Below, one piece after another: positions 36,556 to 41,635 of a stretch of DNA of 49,629 nt. Origin of the DNA: a bacterium (GTDB taxonomy: Bacteria; UBA4055); NCBI GenBank assembly GCA_029559475.1, contig JAKQBN010000054.1, positions 1 to 49,629 on the forward strand. The letters run 5' to 3'. The notes under the pieces are model-generated. The model ran no database searches. It was not told where the DNA came from and saw nothing but the letters and a program-made list of their open reading frames with translations. Positions within the stretch are counted from its first letter, which is position 1; each line of letters begins with the position of its first letter. Both the position numbers and the translations under genes were made by a program.

Positions 36556-38477
36556 AAGAATTTCCTTTTCTAATATCAGCAGCGCTCATCTACTGGGGTT
36601 ATAACTCGGATCATCTTCTGCTTTCATTCATTTTTGCCTTCGTTCTCGAATCTTTCAGATTCATTAAGTTCAGATGGGACCTTAAACAGTCGGATTTTAA
36701 TTATATCTCCATGCTGAGCACGATCACCTCCGCCGGATATATTGTTTATTTTGTCAATGTCGAGATCAGAATAGGAATAATATCAGCTCTAATTCAGTTC
36801 ATGCCCGTGATCCTGTTCCCTCTTATATTTTTCTATATTTACGGAACTTCGGATCATGTGAACGCAAAAAGGCTGTTCCTTCTTTTTGTTACAAATAAAT
36901 ACTCTGTAGTTCATCCGTACATAAGATTCTTCAGACCGGATTATTTTTATTTTACCGCTGTGCTTCTTGCGGGCAGCATAAAAGCGGGATTATATTCATT
37001 CTTTATTGTTTCCTTGCTTCTGATACCTGTACTAATAAAATTAAGATCTAAAGATCATCCGATCTTTAAATTTATAATTTCATATTCTTTAGTAATTATA
37101 CTCTCTCTGATCATGCAGTCGGGAATTTACGGTTCTTTCTATCTGCTTAGAGATTTTCTGACCGATCTCTATATCAAAAACATCATGGATGAAATAGATT
37201 CAAGCATCGGACTCGGAGATATAGCCGGTCAGAAAGATAATTTTGTAATTGAACTCAGAGCTGAGTTTTATAGCGGTAAAAAAGGTGTTCACTACCTTCG
37301 GGACAGAGTTTATAATGCATATTACAAAGGTAAATGGTCTGAAGCCGGTGCGACGCAGACAAAAATCGAAATTAACGAGTTTGAATTCGGTAAAACTCCT
37401 ATCGATTCTGTGAGGATCTACTTTTTTTCAGAATCTAAAAAAGACAGGATCAAGATACCTTTCAGCGCTATTGATTTCTCCGGGCTGAACATTGGAACGA
37501 CTTATATCAATTCGCTGGGCAGTATATCGGCTGACAGATCGCAACATCTCGTCGATTACAAAACATATTCGCGATCCGACGCTCTAACGAATCTGTTCGG
37601 ATTGCCGTCTGAAGCTGACACTAAACTCATTGACACGGATGCAAAAACCGCTGATATAATCATCGATTCGCTTTCACTTAAAAACCTTCCTCCCGATCAG
37701 GTTTTTAAAAGGCTTAGAGATCATTTCATTTCAGATTACAGATATTCTGTCGATTATTCATTTAAAGAAAAAGGCGACCTTTTAAAGACTTTCATTAAGG
37801 CTAAAAAAGGGCACTGTGAGCTTTTCGCTTCACTTTCATGCATCGTGTTCAGACGGCTCGGATATCCGTCACGCTATGTGACAGGATACCTGGTCAGTGA
37901 ATACAGCAATCTAGAAAAAAAGTATGTCGCCCGCAAAAAGGACAGGCATTCATGGATCGTCGTCTGGAACAACAACGGTTCATGGGTAGAGATGGATACT
38001 ACACCGCCAGATATAAGTTCCTTCAAAAAGAACACTTTTATCAGCAGATTTTACGATATGATGTCGTATATTTATCACGAAGCTTTCATGTTCAAAAAAG
38101 AGAATAACGATCTTTTGAGAAAAATATTGGTGTGGTCGCTTTTTCCTTTAGGGCTTTTCCTGCTTTACAGAATATTGAAAGATGTTAAAACCTACAAGGT
38201 AAAAAATGAAAACGGGCATGAAACCAATCCGTACAGGAGAGTTCCTGAACTTGACGCCATTGAAAAGGCGCTCGGCTCTTCAGACGTTAAACATGAAAAT
38301 GAAACGGTAGGTTCGTGGTTCACCAGATTTAAGAACAGCCTTATATTCGAAAAACTCGAATTGATCAGAAAATATTATTACCGGATCAGATACGGCAGAT
38401 CAGAACCGGATAATAAAGCGAGATCTGAATTCAATGAAGCTCTGAAAGACATAAATAAAGAAAGATCAGATCTTTGA
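36552..38477 (+). CDS. Transglutaminase-like membrane protein (TgpA type)
   Basis: A 641-aa protein with five or six membrane helices in the first 200 residues, an extracytoplasmic region and a transglutaminase-fold domain with the catalytic triad in GHCELFASL (Cys near 423), DRHSWIVVW (His near 464) and MDTTPPD (Asp near 484). A final membrane helix near 525-545 is followed by a charged cytoplasmic tail. It may hydrolyse or cross-link envelope peptides. It overlaps the DUF58 gene at its start by 4 nt and the converging LIM peptidase gene at its end by 12 nt. Confidence 0.92.
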   Translation: MKEFPFLISAALIYWGYNSDHLLLSFIFAFVLESFRFIKFRWDLKQSDFNYISMLSTITSAGYIVYFVNVEIRIGIISALIQFMPVILFPLIFFYIYGTSDHVNAKRLFLLFVTNKYSVVHPYIRFFRPDYFYFTAVLLAGSIKAGLYSFFIVSLLLIPVLIKLRSKDHPIFKFIISYSLVIILSLIMQSGIYGSFYLLRDFLTDLYIKNIMDEIDSSIGLGDIAGQKDNFVIELRAEFYSGKKGVHYLRDRVYNAYYKGKWSEAGATQTKIEINEFEFGKTPIDSVRIYFFSESKKDRIKIPFSAIDFSGLNIGTTYINSLGSISADRSQHLVDYKTYSRSDALTNLFGLPSEADTKLIDTDAKTADIIIDSLSLKNLPPDQVFKRLRDHFISDYRYSVDYSFKEKGDLLKTFIKAKKGHCELFASLSCIVFRRLGYPSRYVTGYLVSEYSNLEKKYVARKKDRHSWIVVWNNNGSWVEMDTTPPDISSFKKNTFISRFYDMMSYIYHEAFMFKKENNDLLRKILVWSLFPLGLFLLYRILKDVKTYKVKNENGHETNPYRRVPELDAIEKALGSSDVKHENETVGSWFTRFKNSLIFEKLELIRKYYYRIRYGRSEPDNKARSEFNEALKDINKERSDL

Positions 38478-39482
38478 CTTTGAAAGGGATTTAAATTTAC
38501 TGAATAGTCTTTTCATACCTTTATTTTTAACATAATCGGCTATATAACGATAACCTTCCCCGTAATGCGGATCAGGATTTTCCCTCATGCGGTTATTCAG
38601 TTTTTCGTTGCCATATAAAATATTAATCCGCGAGGCTGTATACTCAGCCCAGCCTTCATTGATTTTTAAGTCTTTTATTCCCGGATAATGTTTATCCATC
38701 CAGTCATGTGCCAGCTCGTGCGCGGCTACCTCAATGAACTTCACTTTTGGCAAATGATCGAGAACACATATAAAGATTGAGTCAGTTCTGCTTGTTTTGA
38801 CATCTTTGCCGATTTCAAATCCGTATAGAGTTTTTGTTGTGGTTTCTGTTTCGGTGAATTTTTCGTGGATAAAAAGGCCGAGTTCTTCTCCGGGTTTTTC
38901 AGATCTTTTTTCCAGTTCGGTTTTGTTAACAAGCCTGAAATTTATGACGCTTTTTGTTGAAAGCTTAAGCTTATTCCTCATTACTTCTCTAACTTCTTTG
39001 AATATCTTTAATGCTTCGTTGTAATCGCTGACAGCCGATTTCTCGCATTCAGAGCAAATGTTTCGTCCGTCCGGAAGAATATTACAATTACCCGGATATC
39101 CGCAGGCAAAACAGACCGGAAGTGCAGAACAATCCTGACAGAAGAACCTTCTTTCACTTCCTCCTATCTCAACTCCGCCGGAAACCTTTTTCCCGCATAA
39201 ATAACAGCTGTGCCATGTTGTCTGAAGACACTCGTTACTGCAGTAATTTTTGCCGTCCTGAACAAATCCCTGCTTTATATGCTTTCCGCAAACGCAACAC
39301 ACAGGCAGAGATTTTTCGAAGCATTCTTCATCGCAGTATTTTTTATCTCCGGCTATGAGATACGATGAACCGGCTTTGATCTCGTTTCCGCACTGGTCAC
39401 AGAAAATCTTATCCGCAGGAAAGACAAGCGGAAAGACTGATAACAGAAACGGCACTAATGCGCAGATAATTATTCTATTCAT
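38466..39482 (-). CDS. Secreted LIM-like zinc-ribbon metallopeptidase, DA1-like
   Basis: A 338-aa protein that starts with a signal peptide (ICALVPFLLSVFPLV, cleavage near 23). Four zinc-ribbon units with paired cysteines follow between 28 and 146: C28/C31-C50/C54, C62/C65-C81/C85, C93/C96-C115/C118, C124/C127-C143/C146, in LIM-like spacing. After a helical linker the C-terminal domain has AHELAHDW with His255, Glu256 and His259, then INEGWAEYTA at 274-283, whose Glu would be the third zinc ligand. This matches the layout of eukaryotic DA1 (LIM plus peptidase) and bacterial relatives. The longest frame starts at TTG 39485; ATG 39482 has AGGAGG 8 nt upstream. Substrate unknown. Confidence 0.82.
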   Translation of the reverse strand: MNRIIICALVPFLLSVFPLVFPADKIFCDQCGNEIKAGSSYLIAGDKKYCDEECFEKSLPVCCVCGKHIKQGFVQDGKNYCSNECLQTTWHSCYLCGKKVSGGVEIGGSERRFFCQDCSALPVCFACGYPGNCNILPDGRNICSECEKSAVSDYNEALKIFKEVREVMRNKLKLSTKSVINFRLVNKTELEKRSEKPGEELGLFIHEKFTETETTTKTLYGFEIGKDVKTSRTDSIFICVLDHLPKVKFIEVAAHELAHDWMDKHYPGIKDLKINEGWAEYTASRINILYGNEKLNNRMRENPDPHYGEGYRYIADYVKNKGMKRLFSKFKSLSKSKI

Positions 39483-39571
39483 CAAATTTACCTCCTGATA
39501 TTAATTTAACATTTAATTTAGCTTTTTCAAAAATAATCTTTATATTTAGCCCTGTATAAATTGAGAAAGAT

Positions 39572-40525
39572 ATGCATAATCAGATCATCATACAGCAAAT
39601 ATCGATTCTCGCACTGCTGACCTTAATCGGTTATGTTTCAGCAAGGCAGGGAATGTTCTCCGACAGCTTTTCTATAGGACTCAACAAGCTAATCATGAAG
39701 ATAACTCTCCCTCTGATGATATTTACTTCACTTTCAAAATTCGAATTTTCGGCCGAGATCTTTAAAAGCTCGGTCCTAGTTCTTATATTCGCTTTTATAT
39801 CAATGTTCATTCTGCTTTTTGCCGGGACCGTTTCAGGCAGGATCCTTAAACTTCCGCATGAATCATATACAGTACACAAAATACATACTACTTTCGGTAA
39901 TATCGCTTTTCTCGGGTATCCGCTTCTTGATTCTCTCTTTCCGGGAGGCAGCGGGCTTTTATACGCTGTAATTTACCACATAGCTGTTGAAGCATTACTA
40001 TGGACTCTTGGAGTGATCATTTTCAACAGGAATAAAAAGATCAGTTTTGCTTCCAGCATGAAACATCTTATCAATCCGAATACTATCGCTTTTGCTTTAG
40101 GATTAGCTTCCTGTTCAGTCTCAATAAAATTATCTTATGTTCCCGATAAAGTTATGAGCGGACTGGGCGGTACTACGATCTATCTCTCAATGATATATAT
40201 CGGCATAATGCTCAGTAAGATCAGTATAAAAGGAACTATGAAAGAAAAACAGATATATATTCTGACATTAAACAAAATGATCCTGGTGCCTTTTATTATG
40301 CTGATGCTTATCAATTCTGTTCAGTATATTTTCGAATTTTATATGGATGAAGCGGCAAAATCTGTAGTAATACTTCAGACTGCGACTCCGTGTATGGCTA
40401 CAATAGTGATCATGGCCGCTGAATTTAAATCTGACGCGGAGCTCGCTGCCAAAAATGTTTTCCTGACGACTCTTTTAAGCGTTATCACTCTTCCGGTCGT
40501 TTACTGGCTTATAAATATATTCTGA
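39572..40525 (+). CDS. AEC-family transporter
   Basis: A 317-aa integral membrane protein with about ten hydrophobic helices and the auxin-efflux-carrier family pattern: IGYVSARQGMFS near the start, LPLMIFTSLSKF, and a second-half repeat with FALGLASCSV and ATPCMATIVIMAAEF. Bacterial members carry dicarboxylates or malonate; the substrate here is not evident. It is preceded by a divergent gap shared with the LIM peptidase gene and its stop codon directly abuts the mraY stop. Confidence 0.9.
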   Translation: MHNQIIIQQISILALLTLIGYVSARQGMFSDSFSIGLNKLIMKITLPLMIFTSLSKFEFSAEIFKSSVLVLIFAFISMFILLFAGTVSGRILKLPHESYTVHKIHTTFGNIAFLGYPLLDSLFPGGSGLLYAVIYHIAVEALLWTLGVIIFNRNKKISFASSMKHLINPNTIAFALGLASCSVSIKLSYVPDKVMSGLGGTTIYLSMIYIGIMLSKISIKGTMKEKQIYILTLNKMILVPFIMLMLINSVQYIFEFYMDEAAKSVVILQTATPCMATIVIMAAEFKSDAELAAKNVFLTTLLSVITLPVVYWLINIF

Positions 40526-41635
40526 TCACCTGATCTTTATCGAAGCAAGGCTTATCAAAGCCAGAATAATGCTGACTATCCAGAATCTCTGTACGATCTT
40601 AGTTTCGGCTATTCCCATGAACTGATAAGTGTGATGTATGGGAGCTCTAAAGAATATCCTTCTGCCCAGCCTGTTTATGCCGATCTTCTCCTGGATCAGT
40701 ACAGAAAGAGCTTCAGCTACGAATATTCCGCCGGCTACAAGAAAGAGCAGTTCCTGCTTTACAAGAATGACAGTAACTCCCAAAAGACCTCCGATAGCCA
40801 TAGATCCCGTATCGCCCATAAAAACTGTGGCCGGATAACAGTTGTACCATAAGAATCCGAGTCCTGCTCCGAATAGGGCAGCCATAATGATCGTAAGCTC
40901 TCCCGTGCCGGGTATATAGTCAAAAAGCAGGTATTTTGAATAGACGGCGTTACCGATAAGATAAGCTAAGATCGCGTAAACGCTACCTGTTACAATTGAA
41001 GGAACAGTGGCGAGACCGTCCATACCGTCTGCGAAATTCACGGAATTAGCTATGGCGACCATCGTCAATACGATAAATCCCATGTAGAACCATCCCGTTT
41101 CTATAGAAAAAGGCCCCTTAACATACGGGATCGTAATTCTCGAGACAATACCTTCAGGGAACGGCGTAAGCTGAGAGTCCGTAAGTATCCATGCAAGACC
41201 GATAGCGAACAGGGACTGCAGTATGATTTTTGTAAGCTGCGTCATACCTTTGTCACTGTTCTTGTATTTTATTTTATCGATATCGTCTTTCGCGCCTATA
41301 GCTCCGTACCATACGATCGCACAAAGCGGAATAATGGAGAATGCAGAGGACAGGTTACTCCATAAAAGAATAGATACAACAAGAGACAGAATTATGATAA
41401 GACCGCCCATCACGGGAGTACCTTTTTTATCGTTGACGCCGATGCTGCCGTAATCTCTTACGATGTCCCTGTATCCGTTCTTATAAAGCCATTTGATTAT
41501 CATGTTTCCGAAAAAAAGAGAAACCAAAAGAGCGGTTATCATAGCTCCTATTGAGCGGAAAAGGATCGAGTCGAAAAGCCTGAAGAACGATAAGAAATTA
41601 TAATCTTTTGAAAGAAATGAAAGATAAAAAAACAT
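40526..41635 (-). CDS. mraY: Phospho-N-acetylmuramoyl-pentapeptide transferase
   Basis: A 369-aa polytopic enzyme that transfers phospho-MurNAc-pentapeptide to undecaprenyl phosphate to form lipid I, the first membrane step of peptidoglycan synthesis. Conserved motifs: GTPVMGGLIII, NSVNFADGMDGLA, FMGDTGSMAIGG and the MraY-specific PIHHTYQF. About ten membrane helices are seen. It stands alone; no mur, ftsW or mraW gene is next to it, so it is outside the usual division-cell-wall cluster. Its stop abuts the AEC stop within a TGATCA palindrome. Confidence 0.97.
   Translation of the reverse strand: MFFYLSFLSKDYNFLSFFRLFDSILFRSIGAMITALLVSLFFGNMIIKWLYKNGYRDIVRDYGSIGVNDKKGTPVMGGLIIILSLVVSILLWSNLSSAFSIIPLCAIVWYGAIGAKDDIDKIKYKNSDKGMTQLTKIILQSLFAIGLAWILTDSQLTPFPEGIVSRITIPYVKGPFSIETGWFYMGFIVLTMVAIANSVNFADGMDGLATVPSIVTGSVYAILAYLIGNAVYSKYLLFDYIPGTGELTIIMAALFGAGLGFLWYNCYPATVFMGDTGSMAIGGLLGVTVILVKQELLFLVAGGIFVAEALSVLIQEKIGINRLGRRIFFRAPIHHTYQFMGIAETKIVQRFWIVSIILALISLASIKIR

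Follow-up and report, generated by a model that had tools for sequence, protein, structure and literature searches.

A 338-residue protein encoded by an anaerobic bacterium of Candidatus Delongbacteria is probably a DA1-family zinc endopeptidase that leaves the cytoplasm, a clan MA gluzincin that works independently of ubiquitin and whose first three cysteine modules form a docking array. The window analysed is the whole 49,629-nt stretch of contig JAKQBN010000054.1 (assembly GCA_029559475.1), from a 2.28-Mb genome in 83 contigs that is 92% complete. In plants, DA1 regulates how large organs and seeds become, limiting the size of organs, and its activation is still poorly understood.

The coding frame (positions 38469-39482, minus strand; ATG at 39482, stop at 38466-38468) specifies a short basic N-terminus, a hydrophobic core that runs to about residue 23, four cysteine quartets spanning residues 28-146, a helical linker and the peptidase domain (Table 1). 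The first-pass annotation, made from the letters of the window, had described a signal peptide, four zinc ribbons and a peptidase domain bearing HELAH and NEGWAEY; the translation bears out this layout of a signal peptide, four Cys4 modules and a HELAH-x16-EG domain, and the residue numbers given for both motifs are correct. In an alignment of 33 family members, the last cysteine quartet, HExxH, E276-G277, E280 and Y307-G-x-G are all invariant, and the layout is, judging from the homologues in other genomes, far beyond chance. Y307 may be regarded from the alignments as a candidate catalytic or substrate-binding residue. A scan of positions 38300-39750 returned no terminator, and promoter-like sites only at chance level.

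Table 1. Features of the peptidase gene and of its divergent neighbour (window coordinates)
Feature	Position	Strand	Basis
Gene for DA1-domain metallopeptidase, predicted to be exported; 338 codons and stop	38466..39482	(-)	ORF; phylum homologues, 44-54% identity
AGGAGG ribosome-binding site, 8 nt upstream of ATG	39491..39496	(-)	Read directly
Signal peptide predicted (by inspection) for residues 1-23, with a hydrophobic core and without a lipobox	39414..39482	(-)	Hydrophobic N-terminus conserved in all intact members
Treble-clef zinc module 1, C28/C31/C50/C54	39309..39407	(-)	Alignment and models; like TRASH domain 2das
Treble-clef zinc module 2, C62/C65/C81/C85	39222..39305	(-)	Alignment and model; some relatives lack it
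Zinc module 3, C93/C96/C115/C118	39126..39212	(-)	Alignment and model
Zinc module 4, invariant DA1-core module, C124/C127/C143/C146	39036..39119	(-)	All four Cys kept throughout 33 close and 13 diverse sequences
DA1-type gluzincin peptidase domain, residues 152-338	38469..39029	(-)	PF12315; M1/thermolysin/collagenase fold, Z 8.6-11.8
HELAH zinc-binding and catalytic motif, 255-259	38706..38720	(-)	HExxH invariant; in register with aminopeptidase N
NEGWAEY, 275-281; E276 as third zinc ligand	38640..38660	(-)	HExxH-x16-E-G in 33/33
YGEGYR motif, 307-312	38547..38564	(-)	Y307 invariant in close and diverse alignments; C-terminal part of PF12315 matches in one relative
Divergent AEC-type (PF03547) membrane permease, conserved neighbour in Delongbacteria	39572..40525	(+)	PF03547 2.4e-40

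Membership of the DA1 family is well supported by profile matches and alignment. The window protein matches PF12315 at 22.4 bits (8.9e-5), which is below Pfam's 25-bit cut-off; across the family, 31 of the 33 members match this profile (E<=0.01, best 1.6e-9) and 19 match Peptidase_M1, and several relatives rise above the DA1 cut-off in the genome search once all in-frame matches are summed. The relatives' matches run from the fourth cysteine module (profile position 2), which itself falls within the matched region, as far as YGxGFR near the C-terminus (profile 172-210). When 13 diverse bacterial DA1 proteins from other lineages were aligned over the core, the columns C124, C127, C143, C146, H255, E256, H259, E276, G277 and Y307 proved invariant in all of them, and for this reason module 4 and the peptidase domain are taken as the DA1 core. 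A cysteine-rich CxxC module fused ahead of the peptidase is likewise present (modules 3 and 4), and module 3, by its position, may represent the first half of the DA1 "LIM-like" pair. The DA1-type peptidase domain and the ribbon-then-peptidase order proposed at first pass are upheld. A PF12315 search of the window's genome returned no match, but the control genomes gave none either. Scans against NCBIfam, PHROGs and PADLOC offered no credible family, weak Csx19 and HNH matches being put down to chance, and a weak match in genome G022 was rejected as a relative, being the zinc region of a TnpB-like transposase.

On the structural models, the peptidase domain is a clan MA gluzincin with a thermolysin-like fold and an HExxH plus glutamate ligand set. 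In the full-length model (pLDDT 84.7, falling below 50 over the signal peptide), residues 136-337 superpose on IRAP at Z 11.8 (rmsd 4.7, 151 residues), and the same region on PepN, collagenase H and thermolysin at Z 11.2, 10.5 and 8.7, respectively, with HELAH lying within the gluzincin fold. Neither outcome named at first pass as refuting the annotation, an absence of DA1/LIM matches or HELAH placed in a non-peptidase fold, came about. A profile of the close family matched aminopeptidase N at 4.4e-5 over the active site, an alignment that places both HELAH and the EG glutamate in register. The fold and the HExxH...E site are held in common with M1, thermolysin (M4) and collagenase (M9), whereas likeness in sequence is confined to the active-site stretch and the accessory domains are not alike. 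GxMEN, the exopeptidase motif of M1, is absent from the window protein's sequence.

The ribbons are treble clefs akin to those of LIM but do not count as LIM domains in the strict sense. A ribbon-only model (pLDDT 93.4) had PINCH LIM4-5 as its top Foldseek match (E 1.9e-4), although VIA Z scores for this model were low (4.2 at best, for PINCH LIM4-5, and 4.0 for the ZMYM5 TRASH domain), and the close-family profile matched LIM proteins over the ribbons at 5.7e-4. The VIA list of PDB matches was full of ribosomal L24e at Z of about 3, matches that indicate merely a small treble clef. Each module has a fold like the treble clefs of LIM and of TRASH/FCS, but the double-finger spacing of LIM is absent, 5-7 residues separating the modules here as against 2 in LIM. 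Canonical LIM ligand spacing occurs in 0 of the 33 members and the Pfam LIM profile (PF00412) matched just three of them (best 0.0021), so that the first-pass term "LIM-like" is apt for the fold but not for the spacing of the ligands. The number of modules differs among relatives, and only the fourth is invariant. Canonical LIM spacing is present in two other bacterial DA1 proteins (L075:835-1887 and L080:724-1836), both of which carry a signal peptide as well as a genuine LIM domain of canonical type and which are, UIMs aside, the closest to plant DA1 in layout.

Export was judged by inspection and by Kyte-Doolittle hydrophobicity. A hydrophobic N-terminal segment, followed by small residues, stands directly ahead of the first cysteine in every intact family member, a conservation that supports the signal peptide and the export predicted at first pass. 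Residue -3 of the predicted cleavage site is Phe, which is not ideal. The first cysteine lies 5 residues past that site and is preceded only by the signal peptide and 4 residues; N-terminal UIMs are absent, there being no room for them ahead of the first cysteine. Among bacterial DA1 proteins of other lineages, 10 of the 15 with a readable N-terminus look exported by inspection (L075, L077, L079, L080, L084, L092, L107, L108, L112, and L114, of which L079 and L084 have twin-arginine-like starts), and L081, L083, L113, L082, and L117 do not; L081, L083, and L113 are short forms that lack a signal peptide and carry only two Cys4 modules. As far as N-terminal sequences tell, export is the rule in the Delongbacteria/Lentisphaerota clade, is common in other bacterial DA1 proteins and is not peculiar to the window's gene. 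As no homologue of DsbA or VKOR was found in the window's genome (92% complete), there is no sign of an oxidising periplasm; cysteines could remain reduced after export and coordinate zinc, which makes zinc modules beyond the cytoplasm plausible.

The gene, its homology, the fold, the conserved ligands and the export signal were computed here, and a working mechanism can be proposed around them. Sec-type export would deliver the mature protein to the periplasm or the cell surface, where H255, H259 and E276 would hold the catalytic zinc, E256 would act as the base that activates water and Y307 could serve as a transition-state or substrate residue. We infer that the protein is catalytically active and has a role in processing proteins that are secreted or belong to the envelope, cutting peptide bonds of exported or envelope substrates. 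The ribbons would bind zinc and protein partners: module 4, joined to the catalytic domain, would be structurally part of the enzyme, and modules 1-3 would constitute an extendable array that most likely docks substrates or partners and may hold the enzyme latent.

Plant DA1 is intracellular, is activated by the E3 ligases BB and DA2 and carries the motif HEMMH-x15-EE (Dong et al., 2017; PMC5322733); the HExxH-x16-E spacing of the bacterial protein corresponds to the position of the second glutamate in that motif. HExxH and the EG glutamate are alike in the plant DA1/DAR family (PF12315, Arabidopsis), a cysteine-rich LIM-like module stands directly ahead, and the C-terminal part of the profile is also matched in relatives of the exported peptidase. 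In contrast to plant DA1, the window peptidase is predicted to be exported, has neither UIMs nor a canonical LIM domain and possesses extra, variable treble clefs, and ubiquitylation cannot activate an exported form in its compartment. Ubiquitin control is very unlikely because UIMs are lacking and the protein is located outside the cytosol; by the same token, having no ubiquitin-binding part and lying outside the cytoplasm, the enzyme must have targets that differ from those of plant DA1. The first-pass expectation of a job unlike that of the plant enzyme is therefore supported. In plant DA1, the substitution C274Y affects the third CxxC/H pair of the LIM-like domain, and both the ubiquitylation and the peptidase activity are lost (Dong et al., 2017; PMC5322733); motif order suggests that this position would fall in module 4, which alone among the modules is invariant in bacteria.

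The gene neighbourhood offers two alternative readings, both of which give the peptidase a specific partner. The first-pass annotation had noted that the gene converges on a MoxR-DUF58-transglutaminase trio. This is so in the window, where the 3' ends overlap by 12 nt, but the arrangement is not conserved outside genus g1, in whose three genomes (the window, L012, and L018) the trio adjoins the peptidase gene. In genera g4 and g6, five genomes have the transglutaminase and the peptidase on different contigs; genomes G008 and G009 have the trio's transglutaminase and no peptidase, and no trio stands beside the peptidase gene in Lentisphaerota. Synteny thus does not support a functional link, and the trio, rejected as a functional partner because its position is not kept outside g1, is an accidental neighbour. 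An envelope complex in which the peptidase and the trio act on the same substrates, as the convergent, overlapping genes and their adjacency in every g1 genome might suggest, is largely refuted by this pattern and is given next to no credence. (At L018:7891-9593, in genome G002, the trio transglutaminase is split into two overlapping frames, by a frameshift or an assembly error.) The permease gene is the steadier companion in Delongbacteria, being divergent beside the peptidase gene in all 8 genomes that show both while other neighbours change, and three genomes without the peptidase are also without the AEC permease. The peptidase might accordingly serve the permease, for example through its cleavage or regulation, or as a source of permease substrate derived from peptides; nevertheless, G008 retains the permease without the peptidase, no AEC gene lies near the Lentisphaerota members, and the pair may be one inherited locus given that few independent lineages are involved, and such a service is considered unlikely. 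The Lentisphaerota neighbours include ptsI or a family-4 glycosyltransferase. The former (PTS enzyme I) is divergent and upstream of the DA1 gene in many members of that phylum (L034-L036, L046, L051, and L066), and was not adopted as a functional link since it is absent beside the gene in Delongbacteria; the latter, related to the window's gene at 40526-41635, lies directly upstream of a three-module DA1 form in L041, L044, L049, and L068. Comparison of neighbours in Delongbacteria and Lentisphaerota yielded no substrate, inhibitor or partner shared between phyla, as would be expected if the enzyme acts on its own.

Two further alternatives concern the protein itself. The cysteine array could be a TRASH-like metal sensor or store that switches the peptidase on or off according to envelope zinc or copper, the peptidase then acting in metal stress. 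Module 1 resembles the ZMYM5 TRASH domain (2das; Foldseek probability 0.98 over 36 columns, rmsd 1.5), the cysteine spacings of module 1 (CxxC-x18-CxxxC) and module 2 (CxxC-x15-CxxxC) fit treble clefs of the FCS/TRASH type, and the number of modules varies. On the other hand, whole ligand quartets are conserved, in the manner of a folded structural zinc module and not of a labile site, and no metal transporter or regulator was recognised among the conserved neighbours; we consider a sensor unlikely. A catalytically dead or vestigial DA1 domain, retained only as a binding scaffold, would agree with the fact that no biochemical demonstration of activity in a bacterial member turned up in the literature searched, but is highly improbable when all 33 close and all 13 diverse sequences retain H255, E256, H259 and E276. 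The preferred reading remains an active exported endopeptidase whose modules 1-3 dock other proteins. Of the first-pass interpretation as a whole, the export, the DA1 domain, the domain order, the peptidase fold and the distinct job were retained; a functional link to the trio was not supported, the LIM label was overstated, and the gene is not unique, other bacterial DA1 proteins having signal peptides too.

The gene is present in 9 of 13 genomes of the phylum, the relatives in 8 other Delongbacteria genomes showing 44-54% identity, and further relatives occur in about 40 Lentisphaerota-type records. A contig scan with the single protein found nothing; with an alignment, it gave 47 loci, which, those of Delongbacteria aside, come almost entirely from Lentisphaerota (Victivallales), including a cultured species, Victivallis vadensis DSM 14823 (L053), or from untitled rumen MAGs; one Verrucomicrobia MAG and one Kiritimatiellota MAG make up the exceptions. 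In an unrooted tree of the core domain, the Delongbacteria sequences form a group of their own (support 100/99), nested in a larger supported one of 38 sequences (96/94), the rest of which are Lentisphaerota and a few others. Because the tree is unrooted, gene transfer from a Lentisphaerota-like donor is suggested but not shown.

Bacterial relatives of DA1 are already on record: the paper of Dong et al. (2017; PMC5322733), citing Burroughs et al. (2011), describes the DA1 C-terminal region as highly similar to predicted Roseiflexus proteins. The exported peptidase is for this reason best regarded as a variant of a known family, and the practical value of the finding is moderate. No description of the exported clade was found in the literature searched, a set that excluded Burroughs et al. 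(2011); new here are a large clade of exported members whose treble-clef arrays are variable and non-canonical, the finding that module 4 is invariant, and a corrected claim about gene context. The exported bacterial branch offers a simple system in which the effect of the LIM-like module on the peptidase may be followed without the ubiquitin machinery. It is also conceivable, if rather doubtful, that the first DA1 peptidases were bacterial, exported and equipped with a modular treble-clef docking array, and that the ubiquitin-gated intracellular DA1 of plants arose late from them by loss of the signal peptide and acquisition of UIMs, in which case the bacterial clade would show the original, ubiquitin-free activation mechanism.

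Lastly, variant forms of the protein were encountered among the loci. Tandem DA1 pairs occur at many loci of rumen Lentisphaeria (L054, L055, L056, L058-L062, and L069-L071), wherein a short form with one or two cysteine modules is followed by a four-module form, both with signal peptides. In L117 (genome G356), the ORF at the start of the locus contains a DA1 core (one cysteine module plus the peptidase) within a 1258-aa frame, and this long protein has no export signal near its cysteine module.
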